Shown here in pieces: positions 1,352 to 4,493 of a stretch of DNA of 32,706 nucleotides. The notes under the pieces were generated by a model. That model did no database searches and was not told the DNA's origin. It saw only the letters and a program-made list of their open reading frames with translations. Positions within the stretch are counted from its first letter, which is position 1; each line of letters starts with the position of its first letter. The position numbers and the translations under genes were made by a program. The DNA is from a virus. The DNA lies in IMG/VR virus record IMGVR_UViG_3300030333_002016, positions 1 to 32,706 of that record; one strand, written 5' to 3'.

Positions 1352-1366
1352 TGTTATTATTCACTA

Positions 1367-1395
1367 TTTACTACTGTTCGTTTTTGCTGTATACT
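1367..1395 (+). promoter_or_regulatory. Candidate sigma70-type promoter upstream of the RNR gene
   Basis: TTTACT (1367-1372, 4 of 6 matches to TTGACA) is followed after 17 bases by TATACT (1390-1395, 5 of 6 matches to TATAAT). Transcription would begin near 1402, at the very start of the hairpin described next. It lies in the longest intergenic gap of the + strand. No transcript data support it, and an AT-rich gap can match by chance. Confidence 0.4.
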
Positions 1396-1398
1396 TAC

Positions 1399-1462
1399 CT
1401 ATACAGTCTTTGAAGAAGAGAAGTTAAAAGTATTTATTATTATTTCTTCAAAGACTTTATAG
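1399..1462 (+). repeat. Long inverted repeat (19-bp arms) in the RNR leader
   Basis: The arms 1399-1417 (CTATACAGTCTTTGAAGAA) and 1444-1462 (TTCTTCAAAGACTTTATAG) are complementary at 18 of 19 positions, with one C/T mismatch, around a 26-base AT-rich loop. There is no T-run directly after the 3' arm, so it is a poor intrinsic terminator. It lies 38 bases before the RNR start and outside the GAGGGG ribosome-binding site (1484-1489). It could be a 5'-leader hairpin that protects mRNA, an RNase III processing site, or a protein-binding site. Confidence 0.7.
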
Positions 1463-1500
1463 TCTATCATAGTTATTTAATTTGAGGGGATGTTTTATTC

Positions 1501-3372
1501 ATGGATGCATATCAAAGTTATATTCACAAGAGTAGGTATGCTCGTTACCTACCAGAAGAAGGCAGACGAGAAACGTGGGAAGAGACTGTTCAAAGATACG
1601 TTCAGTTTTTCAAGGACAAAGGGTATTTAAAATCCAAGGAAGCTGAAGAACTCTATGAAGCTATACATAACCTAGATGTTATGCCTAGCATGAGAGCTTT
1701 GATGACAGCAGGTGGAGCAGGTGCGTTAGACCGGGACAATGTTGCAGGGTTTAACTGTGCATACCTAGCGATAGATAGTCCAAGATCTTTTGATGAGATG
1801 ATGTATATCTTATTATGTGGTACTGGTGTTGGATATAGTGTTGAACGGCAGTACATCAACAAATTACCAGCAGTAGAAGAGGATATGCATGAAACAGAAA
1901 CCATTATTCATGTCGCAGATAGTAAAATTGGATGGGCGAAATCATTCAGAGAACTGGTATCGCTGCTTTATTCAGGCCAAATACCCCGATGGGACGTTAG
2001 TAGAGTTAGACCTAGCGGCAGCGTCCTCAAAACTTTTGGAGGCCGGGCAAGTGGCCCTGAACCTCTTGTCGAACTCTTCAACTTTACGGTCGGAATTTTT
2101 AAAGGTGCGTCTGGTCGAAAGCTTAATTCCCTTGAATGTCACGATCTGGCATGTAAGATCGCAGAGATTGTCGTTGTCGGAGGCGTTCGCAGATCAGCCC
2201 TCATCTCGCTTAGCAACCTCACAGATGACAGATTGAAGAGAGCCAAGCATGGTAATTGGTGGGATCACACACCACATAGAGCTTTGGCAAACAACTCTGC
2301 TTGCTACACAGAGAAGCCAGATTTTGAAGCCTTCCTCAATGAGTGGAGTAGTCTCTACGAATCGAAGGCAGGTGAGCGAGGGATATTTTCTAGGGTAGCT
2401 AGTCAACACCAGGCGGCTAAGAGTGGAAGGAGAGATGCCGATCAAGAGTTCGGTTGCAATCCTTGCAGTGAAATAGTACTTTTATCAAATCAGTTTTGTA
2501 ACCTAAGTGAAGTGGTTGTTCGACCCGAAGATACTGTCGAAGAATTAAAATGGAAGGTACGTTTAGCTACTATATTAGGTACACTCCAAGCTACACTTAC
2601 AGACTTCAGATATCTACGTGGAATATGGCAGAAGAACACAGAAGAAGAAGCCTTACTTGGTGTCAGCTTGACAGGGATCATGGACAATTCTGCTATGACC
2701 TTAGAGAATCCAAGACTTCCAGAACTTTTAGAGGAATTAAAGAATGAAGCTATCAAGACTAACAAAGAATGGGCTAAGAGGTTGGGCATTAAACAGTCTG
2801 CGGCAATCACTTGCGTCAAGCCCAGTGGAACGGTATCGCAACTTGTTGATTCAGCCAGTGGTATTCATCCTCGTTATTCTCAGTACTACATTCGTACAGT
2901 ACGAGCCGACAAGCGTGATCCCCTCTGTACTGTCCTGAAGGACGCAGGAGTGCCCTGTGAAGACGATCTACGTTCACCTAGTACACTAGTATTTAGTTTT
3001 CCTAAACGCTCACCAGAGGGCGTATACACAGCCTCAGAGGTAAGGGGCTATGATCAGCTATTACTATGGGAAGTCTATCAAGACCACTGGTGTGAGCATA
3101 AACCCAGTATGACATGTTACTATAGGGACGATGAGTTCCTGGAGATAGGTCAATGGGTTTATAATAAGTTTGATTCTATATCAGGCATAAGCTTCTTGCC
3201 TTATGACGGTCATGTGTATGAACAAGCTCCGTATCAACCTATTAGTAAGGAGAAATACGAAGAGCTTATCGCAGACTTCCCTCAAGAATTTGATTGGGAT
3301 ATCATTGAAGAGCAAGACAATACTGAAGGCACACAAACATTGGCATGCACAGGAGATAGTTGTGAAATCTGA
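1501..3372 (+). CDS. nrdJ: Class II (adenosylcobalamin-dependent) ribonucleoside-triphosphate reductase
   Basis: Reduces ribonucleotides to deoxyribonucleotides for phage DNA synthesis, using a radical generated from adenosylcobalamin. The 623-residue protein is of the monomeric type described in Lactobacillus leichmannii (739 residues). All key residues are visible: C86 (FNCAYLAID) and C333 (NQFCNLSEV) as the redox pair, C322 and E324 in NPCSE, and a C-terminal CTGDSC shuttle pair at C616/C621. The 322-333 spacing of 11 and the 616-621 spacing of 5 equal those of the L. leichmannii enzyme (408/419, 731/736). A conserved block GGRASGPEPL lies near residue 180. Start ATG 1501 follows GAGGGG (1484-1489). 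No NrdA/NrdB genes are present. The host must therefore supply cobalamin. Confidence 0.95.
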   Translation: MDAYQSYIHKSRYARYLPEEGRRETWEETVQRYVQFFKDKGYLKSKEAEELYEAIHNLDVMPSMRALMTAGGAGALDRDNVAGFNCAYLAIDSPRSFDEMMYILLCGTGVGYSVERQYINKLPAVEEDMHETETIIHVADSKIGWAKSFRELVSLLYSGQIPRWDVSRVRPSGSVLKTFGGRASGPEPLVELFNFTVGIFKGASGRKLNSLECHDLACKIAEIVVVGGVRRSALISLSNLTDDRLKRAKHGNWWDHTPHRALANNSACYTEKPDFEAFLNEWSSLYESKAGERGIFSRVASQHQAAKSGRRDADQEFGCNPCSEIVLLSNQFCNLSEVVVRPEDTVEELKWKVRLATILGTLQATLTDFRYLRGIWQKNTEEEALLGVSLTGIMDNSAMTLENPRLPELLEELKNEAIKTNKEWAKRLGIKQSAAITCVKPSGTVSQLVDSASGIHPRYSQYYIRTVRADKRDPLCTVLKDAGVPCEDDLRSPSTLVFSFPKRSPEGVYTASEVRGYDQLLLWEVYQDHWCEHKPSMTCYYRDDEFLEIGQWVYNKFDSISGISFLPYDGHVYEQAPYQPISKEKYEELIADFPQEFDWDIIEEQDNTEGTQTLACTGDSCEI

Positions 3373-3758: not shown

Positions 3759-4217
3759 ATGGCAGTAATTGAAGGAACTGCGTATTGGAGTAGTATTACC
3801 ACTCCTAACAGGAAGTTTGAACCTGTGTACTCTACGAATCTGGTTGTGCCAGATGACGTAGCTGCTAAATTCAAGGCCGATGGCTATTCTGTGAAAGAAA
3901 TGGATGAAGGTCAGGCTTTGATCATTAAGCGGAAGGTTGCTAAGAAAGGTGGTGGTACTAACCCAGCTCCAAAATTAATTGATCAGGACTTGCAACCTTT
4001 GGATGCTCAAGTAGGTAATGGGTCAAAGGTACGTGTCCAGTATCGGCCTTGGGAAACTACTAATTCGTATGGTACTTTCAAAGGGCTTGATCTTCAATGT
4101 GTGCAAGTGTTAGAGCTAGTTGAGTATGGTGAATCTTCTGCTGACGGAGAAGAGCTTGGCTTTGTCGAGCAGGTTAATCGTGAGTTTGTCGAGGATCTTA
4201 TAAAGGATGCACTATGA
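3759..4217 (+). CDS. Single-stranded DNA-binding protein (T7 gp2.5-like)
   Basis: Coats single-stranded DNA at the replication fork and helps the polymerase, helicase and recombination steps. The 152-residue protein starts at ATG 3759 after AGGAG. It has the look of the short marine gp2.5-like proteins: an N-terminal strand region with YWSSITTPNRKFEPVYSTNL, a basic loop (KRKVAKKGG), then NGSKVRVQYRPWETTNSYG and FKGLDLQCVQVLELVEY, consistent with an OB fold. The last 30 residues are acidic (SSADGEELGFVEQ), as in SSB tails that contact other replication proteins. T7 gp2.5 is longer (232 residues). It is next to replication genes. The family call is by pattern. Confidence 0.8.
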   Translation: MAVIEGTAYWSSITTPNRKFEPVYSTNLVVPDDVAAKFKADGYSVKEMDEGQALIIKRKVAKKGGGTNPAPKLIDQDLQPLDAQVGNGSKVRVQYRPWETTNSYGTFKGLDLQCVQVLELVEYGESSADGEELGFVEQVNREFVEDLIKDAL

Positions 4218-4435
4218 GTGAGAAAGAAGAGTCAACATTCACTCATGGTGACACCTCGTATAAGTTTAGCGAACTTGATGACCACTCACAAAAGTGTTAT
4301 AAGCTTGTGATGAAAGTCACCAAGGAGATTGAGCAGCTTGAAGCTGATTTAGCTATAAAAAAGGCTGCTTCGATTTATCTCTCTAAACAAATACTATCCA
4401 ACATGGATAAGCAGAAGGATGATGAGGGGCGATAA
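4214..4435 (+). CDS. Small coiled-coil protein, DUF6447-like (73 aa)
   Basis: Overlaps the SSB stop by 4 bases (ATGA). A short N-terminal strand region (TFTHGDTSYKFSELDDHSQK) is followed by a helix with heptad character, KEIEQLEADLAIKKAASIYL. This arrangement recalls the small DUF6447 phage proteins, which are of unknown function. Its stop codon (4433-4435) lies in the loop of an intrinsic terminator, so the gene is the end of a transcription unit. The family assignment is from memory of the pattern. Confidence 0.7.
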   Translation: MSEKEESTFTHGDTSYKFSELDDHSQKCYKLVMKVTKEIEQLEADLAIKKAASIYLSKQILSNMDKQKDDEGR

Positions 4436-4450
4436 GCCCCTTATTTTTCT
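4424..4450 (+). terminator. Intrinsic (rho-independent) terminator
   Basis: A GC-rich stem GGGGC (4426-4430) and GCCCC (4436-4440) encloses the loop GATAA. A flanking A-T pair and a G-T pair extend it, and TTATTTTTCT follows at 4441-4450. The stop codon of the preceding gene forms part of the loop. It separates the RNR/SSB unit from the primase-helicase/polymerase unit. Confidence 0.85.
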
Positions 4451-4460
4451 ATATGCTTTA

Positions 4461-4493
4461 ATATCTTTCGAGATATGTCTACATATCTTGGAA
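4461..4493 (+). promoter_or_regulatory. Overlapping, mutually exclusive hairpins before primase-helicase
   Basis: ATATCT (4461-4466), loop TTCG, AGATAT (4471-4476) forms one perfect hairpin. A second, longer one pairs 4466-4477 with 4482-4493 (12 pairs, two of them G-U) around the loop TCTA. Both need the AGATAT at 4471-4476, so only one can form at a time. Directly downstream of a terminator and 40 bases before the next ATG, this may be an RNase III processing site or a leader switch. I see no convincing promoter in 4451-4532. Confidence 0.55.

Follow-up and report, generated by a model that had tools for sequence, protein, structure and literature searches.

Bacterial mRNAs can be protected from decay by structure at their 5′ end. 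In E. coli, as described in PMC3997798, 5′ secondary structure stabilises mRNAs because RppH and RNase E depend on single-stranded 5′ ends, and ompA and papA are given there as mRNAs with stabilising 5′-terminal stem-loops. For phage T4, the account in PMC3014915 describes gene e transcripts that, because they start at a late promoter, are missing the 5′ half-portion needed for an inhibitory hairpin, as well as the binding of gp43 to a hairpin located some 40 nt before its own start codon. For cellular nrd genes, NrdR sites are described as two tandem palindromic boxes about 31–32 bp apart (PMC2892513).

The sequence under study is IMG/VR record IMGVR_UViG_3300030333_002016, positions 1–32,706, from an uncultured phage; we refer to this whole stretch of 32,706 nt as the window. 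The leader described here lies in the + strand gap at 1352–1500 (149 nt), which ends at the gene for a class II (adenosylcobalamin) ribonucleotide reductase (RNR; 623 aa, 1501–3372, + strand, phrog_367 E = 6e-182). The initial annotation had called this the longest gap of the + strand. That holds if a 56-aa frame at 714–884 is counted; among ORFs of at least 60 aa only, the gap at 710–876 is longer. Among the phage records listed, the best 60 share 56.6–62.2% identity with this RNR, and many carry an annotation as adenosylcobalamin-dependent; tblastn matches to the enzyme were found in 1192 of 50,697 phage records. Located 3′ of it on the + strand are genes for a Gp2.5-like ssDNA-binding protein (SSB; 3759–4217, + strand, phrog_112 E = 1e-10), which belongs to the same putative transcription unit, and for a primase/helicase, a DNA polymerase, an endonuclease VII and a Cas4-domain exonuclease. 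GC skew in the window tracks gene orientation and is uninformative on an origin. In five records searched with PF00940, a profile of phage RNA polymerase, there was no match, and the control likewise matched nowhere.

Our preferred reading, held tentatively and a little short of even confidence, is that the gap combines a promoter with a 5′-terminal stem-loop of the RNR–SSB mRNA, most likely stabilising its 5′ end. A promoter with its −35 at 1367 and its −10 at 1390 would start the mRNA at about 1401–1403. This mRNA would encode the RNR, a small ORF, the Gp2.5-like SSB and another small ORF, and would end at a terminator at 4425–4450. The RNA would begin 2–4 nt before a 14-pair stem (1405–1418 with 1443–1456) extended by one to three further outer pairs, with the ribosome-binding site about 20 nt past the hairpin. 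With the 5′ end kept base-paired, 5′-end-dependent decay of the RppH/RNase E type would be slowed during dNTP production, assuming by analogy that an RppH/RNase E-like pathway exists in the phage's host. The idea of a protected 5′ end had been raised in the initial annotation and fits, the protective effect itself being inferred. Like the ompA and papA stem-loops, the leader has a stable stem that lies between the ribosome site and the putative 5′ end, within a few nucleotides of the latter. Unlike them, it precedes the class II RNR gene of an uncultured phage, its start is a predicted one and its effect on stability a presumed one.

The inverted repeat at the centre of this reading was recovered by our repeat scan as previously annotated, with 19-nt arms at 1399–1417 and 1444–1462 (+ strand) that pair at 18 of 19 positions and were checked for pairing across contigs. 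Its sole mismatch is C1404 opposite T1457. The 26 nt between the arms (1418–1443, + strand) are predicted to form an A/U-rich loop with weak inner pairing, in which 1418 and 1443 make a G–U pair; this loop has one variable column (1421) in the five contigs now known to carry the leader. By ungapped score the repeat is the strongest short-range repeat of the window (16, with the next at 12), and when the 32.7-kb window was simulated 40 times with a first-order Markov model, no simulation reached 16 (best 15). Folded alone, the hairpin 1399–1462 has a predicted energy of −20.3 kcal/mol, a value that none of 500 shuffles reached, for a stretch that was picked for its repeat. Folding the gap in full gives no exceptional stability (z −1.38; 18 of 200 shuffles as low). 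The minus strand folds about equally well or better in four of the five contigs. In the fold predicted for an RNA from 1400, outer pairs and weak inner pairs add to 14 continuous ones for a total of 24. RNAs from 1401 or 1403 are predicted to form the stem with a probability of 0.82–1.00, whichever of the five sequences, of four 3′ ends and of two temperatures is used.

The repeat had been described as lacking a T-run and hence as not being a standard terminator, and we agree: TCTATCATAG comes next. The combination of a GC-rich stem and a T-run that defines an intrinsic terminator was not found at 1399–1462, and a terminator scan of 1000–2000 returned no hit. None of the Rfam cis-elements, such as the cobalamin riboswitch, was found at the gathering score; the best of 20 sub-threshold matches scored 22.6 bits compared to the 70 needed.

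The putative sigma70-type promoter, TTTACT-17-TATACT (1367–1395, + strand), agrees with the consensus at 9 of 12 positions. Matches of this quality do not exceed the chance level (41 in 16 kb compared to 47.0 expected), so the promoter is not established by its sequence alone. The candidate of the initial annotation draws its support from its two hexamers, neither of which varies among the five contigs. The placement of the start at the 5′ edge of the repeat is a fair one: adding 7 nt to the −10 leads to 1402, and the nearest purines, 1401 and 1403, are 2–4 nt inside the first arm. The use of the promoter, the start site and the function of the leader are all inferred.

The leader is also found in four other IMG/VR contigs, 3300030060_001489 (L001), 3300030104_001604 (L002/L110), 3300037963_000763 (L085/L089) and 3300037558_000426 (L091/L115), in each case directly before a class II RNR gene. 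L001 and L002 were located by repeat scan, L085 and L091/L115 by pattern and by neighbouring proteins. Over the five contigs, 7 of the 115 leader columns at 1386–1500 are variable (1398, 1408, 1412, 1421, 1449, 1457 and 1500), and the ribosome-binding region at 1482–1489 (+ strand), within TTTGAGGGGATG, is invariant. Differences from the window per 115 leader positions amount to 2 in L085, 3 in L001, 2 in L002 and 4 in L115, compared to 22, 13, 13 and 13 per 100 third positions of RNR codons 1–100 (Fisher p = 1e-6, 0.004, 0.002 and 0.011, respectively, for comparisons that are not independent). Ungapped counts of L085 for RNR 1–1200 are inflated by an insertion and were left out. As judged from these alignments, the leader is likely under constraint, though of a modest degree, because the contrast is weaker with RNR codons 101–200 (16, 7, 11 and 9 third-position differences per 100 in the same order) and because the upstream 74-aa ORF is in part little diverged (fourfold sites differing: 2 of 19 in L085, 0 of 18 in L001, 5 of 15 in L002 and 1 of 19 in L115).

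We searched for the leader more widely. At least 80 RNR loci were kept, and the upstream regions of 50 were scanned for repeats (those of L010, L021 and L037 being shorter than 220 nt). The long repeat was found in L001 and L002, a 9-nt repeat in four regions and none at threshold in 44; no upstream repeat scoring above 9 was present in the 48 scanned loci other than L001 and L002. Inspection by eye of 17 upstream stretches of other RNR loci revealed no counterpart of the leader, and two loci of primase relatives at about 60% identity (L095 and L100), also inspected by eye, have other sequence without such a leader before the SSB-like gene. In a repeat scan of another set of 30 loci, which included the known ones, the long repeat was found in the four known contigs alone, and a pattern scan of genome contigs for the leader found none. 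With the leader found in five contigs only, the window included, it is therefore, on this evidence, a feature of one small clade. Among the literature matches listed, none concerns this leader, as judged by titles and the beginnings of abstracts.

Within this clade, the stem is preserved as expected of a 5′-terminal mRNA-stabilising stem-loop, across five contigs and with one two-sided change. All 95 counted stem cells are paired and none is broken, the mismatched pair 1404/1457 being left out. Positions 1412/1449 are G–C in the window and L085, and A–U in L001, L002 and L115. This change is best read as one event because the contigs group alike by primase distance (6% within window/L085, 0.4–9% within L001/L002/L115 and 14–16% between the groups). 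The chance that two given columns of 115 form one of the 19 pairs is 0.003, and 1412 and 1449 share the same split. In L115, C1408T turns a C–G pair into a U–G wobble, which pairs in the + strand RNA and would be A–C on the other strand. By itself the covariation count is weak because 52 of 500 within-pair shuffles reach its score, and RNAalifold, given the 150-column gap alignment, settled on a structure that lacks the long stem. The two-sided change could also have arisen at the DNA level, without selection on RNA, through template-switch correction from one arm to the other. The check on covariation suggested in the initial annotation thus yields one compensatory change, on one branch, and one change that preserves a wobble pair: support for the stem, but thin.

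A second palindrome, CTGTATA-N6-TATACAG at 1387–1406, was found by pattern scan over the −10 and the putative start; it shares 1399–1406 with the first long arm and may be an operator or a mere reflection of the −10 plus the arm. As a DNA operator it would bind a repressor or activator, the long repeat adding inverted half-sites, and sites that overlap the −10 are typical of repressors. Like NrdR operators, it is a palindrome over an RNR promoter. The exact pattern, derived post hoc from the site itself, occurs once in the window compared to 0.00 expected, and at one place per record in four of five related records; the fifth (behind L105) is without the region because it begins inside the primase gene. 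The palindrome arms are invariant in all five contigs, over all eight counted pairs, while the spacer is changed in L115. The invariance of these arms, however, has other reasons, since they double as the −10 and as the 5′ arm of the stem. Moreover, the exact palindrome was not found a second time in any of the records searched, its loose copies in the window are as many as chance would give (3 places compared to 3.11 expected with 3 mismatches allowed), and C1408T in L115 disrupts the long repeat's symmetry as DNA while leaving a wobble pair in the RNA. The window also contains no match with up to 3 mismatches to a 16-bp NrdR-box consensus, a search in which divergent boxes could be missed, nor a second CTGTATA-N6-TATACAG-like site near 1396 as in the tandem layout of NrdR operators. 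The suggestion that the repeat is the target of a regulator of nucleotide supply accordingly found no specific support in the Rfam and NrdR-box searches, and we consider an operator unlikely. A cut in the stem by RNase III or another endonuclease, maturing the leader and setting the mRNA level, appears less probable still. Stems of T7 early mRNA are processed by RNase III, and the 14 continuous pairs with the outer and weak inner ones make up the 24 of the fold predicted from 1400; RNase III nonetheless prefers about two helical turns, for which the continuous part is short, and processing is not required if transcription starts at 1401–1403. Slightly below this we place a relic or slowly changing spacer, functionless beyond its promoter and ribosome site. 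Such a spacer would agree with the restriction of the leader to five closely related contigs, with the 48 other scanned RNR loci lacking an upstream repeat above 9 and with nearby divergence that is low in places, but not with the pair-preserving changes or with fewer changes than at third positions of RNR codons 1–100.

The leader could instead act on translation, either by hiding the ribosome site in read-through RNA or by binding a phage replication protein, for example the SSB of the unit. Precedents described for T4 in PMC3014915 are the leaders of genes e, soc and 49 and the gp43 hairpin. As in the leaders of genes e, soc and 49, a promoter-started transcript would lose half of an upstream hairpin (1386–1393:1400–1407). 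In addition, TTTGAGGGGATG is a possible pairing partner of the long stem's 3′ arm, and this pairing is preferred by RNA 1352–1500 in three of the five sequences (probability at 37 °C: window 0.59, L085 0.79 and L002 0.91, with 0.00 in L001 and 0.07 in L115). Sequestration of the ribosome site by the 3′ arm was favoured on the 149-nt gap and the gap alignment but no longer so once RNR or further upstream sequence was added: the probability of the long stem is at least 0.79 in all five sequences for RNAs from 1300 or 1352 to 1533 or 1600, at both 37 and 20 °C, and at least 0.94 for RNA 1300–1500. Opening the ribosome site is predicted to cost 2.18–4.35 kcal/mol in read-through RNAs compared to 3.15–4.50 kcal/mol in promoter-started ones; with costs this similar, starting at the promoter brings no gain in access. 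The leader thereby differs from those of T4 genes e, soc and 49, whose logic does not carry over because no loss of access to the ribosome site is predicted here for long transcripts. We rejected an inhibitory leader of the T4 gene e type on the similar opening cost and the dominance of the long stem in longer RNAs, both of them equilibrium predictions only. The upstream hairpin and the long stem are mutually exclusive in the outer part only (1399–1407). RNAs of L002 and L115 that begin at 1300 are predicted to be likely to contain the long-stem core along with the upstream hairpin, the latter with a probability of up to 0.70 at 37 °C and 0.73 at 20 °C. An equilibrium switch on the ribosome site is thus not supported by the folding models, and we rate translational control as improbable, to the same degree as endonuclease processing. 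Least probable of all, in our judgement, is a switch set by promoter choice, in which read-through RNA would fold the 1386–1407 hairpin first during transcription and leave RNR off, while RNA from 1401–1403 would fold the long stem and be translated, or a long stem read by the SSB of the unit, coupling dNTP supply to replication.

For the reading as a promoter and a stabilising 5′ stem-loop, the flanks of the gap delimit the putative transcription unit. Upstream, a terminator-like hairpin (1328–1385, + strand; arms 1328–1351 and 1354–1377, 75% complementary) covers the end of the 74-aa ORF and is followed by TTCGTTTTT. Folds of 72–73 nt give −18.7 kcal/mol in the window, −18.7 in L085, −18.0 in L001, −12.1 in L002 and −19.8 in L115; L002 and L115 use another 5′ side, which pairs with largely the same 3′ side. 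The consensus terminator scan did not flag this hairpin. Given its position upstream of the promoter, the gap resembles a boundary between two transcription units. At the other end, the terminator scan identified an intrinsic terminator, GGGGC-GATAA-GCCCC-TTATTTTTCT (4425–4450, + strand), that closes the putative RNR–SSB unit, and its hairpin is present in all five related loci searched (L088, L089, L090, L091 and L110). Neither of these flanking elements, nor the second palindrome at 1387–1406, figures in the initial annotation. The leader is real, conserved and ordinary in kind, and the layout of terminator, promoter and leader hairpin is ordinary too. The leader offers a compact control region of a phage class II RNR that is open to testing; should mRNA lifetime depend on the stem, it would exemplify how a phage secures dNTP supply for replication.

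A second leader-like hairpin (12 pairs) is located at 4466–4493 of the window, between the 4425–4450 terminator and the primase gene. In a related genome, G002, a base of its 3′ arm is changed and a U–G pair is kept.

The RNR gene of L085 (2287–4200) encodes a protein 14 residues longer than that of the window (637 compared to 623 aa). It differs from the window at 177 of 1869 aligned bases, compared to 134–161 in the other three relatives, though the primase and polymerase of L085 are the closest. This divergence, on sequence comparison, suggests an exchange of RNR alleles. In contig 3300030419_004562 (L117, 1–500), a relative of the 74-aa upstream ORF starts and then another reading frame, which by eye we take to be GIY-YIG-like, replaces the leader.

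Finally, other palindromes were seen in relatives and in the window. In G002, the region 6326–6776 of L119 (24880–25330 of its reverse complement), near a switch from − to + strand genes, contains GTTCTNTTTTAGAAC palindromes in two close copies plus a more degenerate third, together with copies of GTAGGCTTTGCAG in both orientations, an array that looks operator- or origin-like. Close clustered copies of the GTTCTNTTTTAGAAC or GTAGGCTTTGCAG motifs, with up to 2 mismatches, were not found in the window. At 755–804 the window has an inverted repeat of its own, AGATAAGATTTGCAAGGA / TCCTTGAAGATCTTATCT, inside the small frame 714–884, and this repeat is kept in the L001, L002 and L085 contigs.
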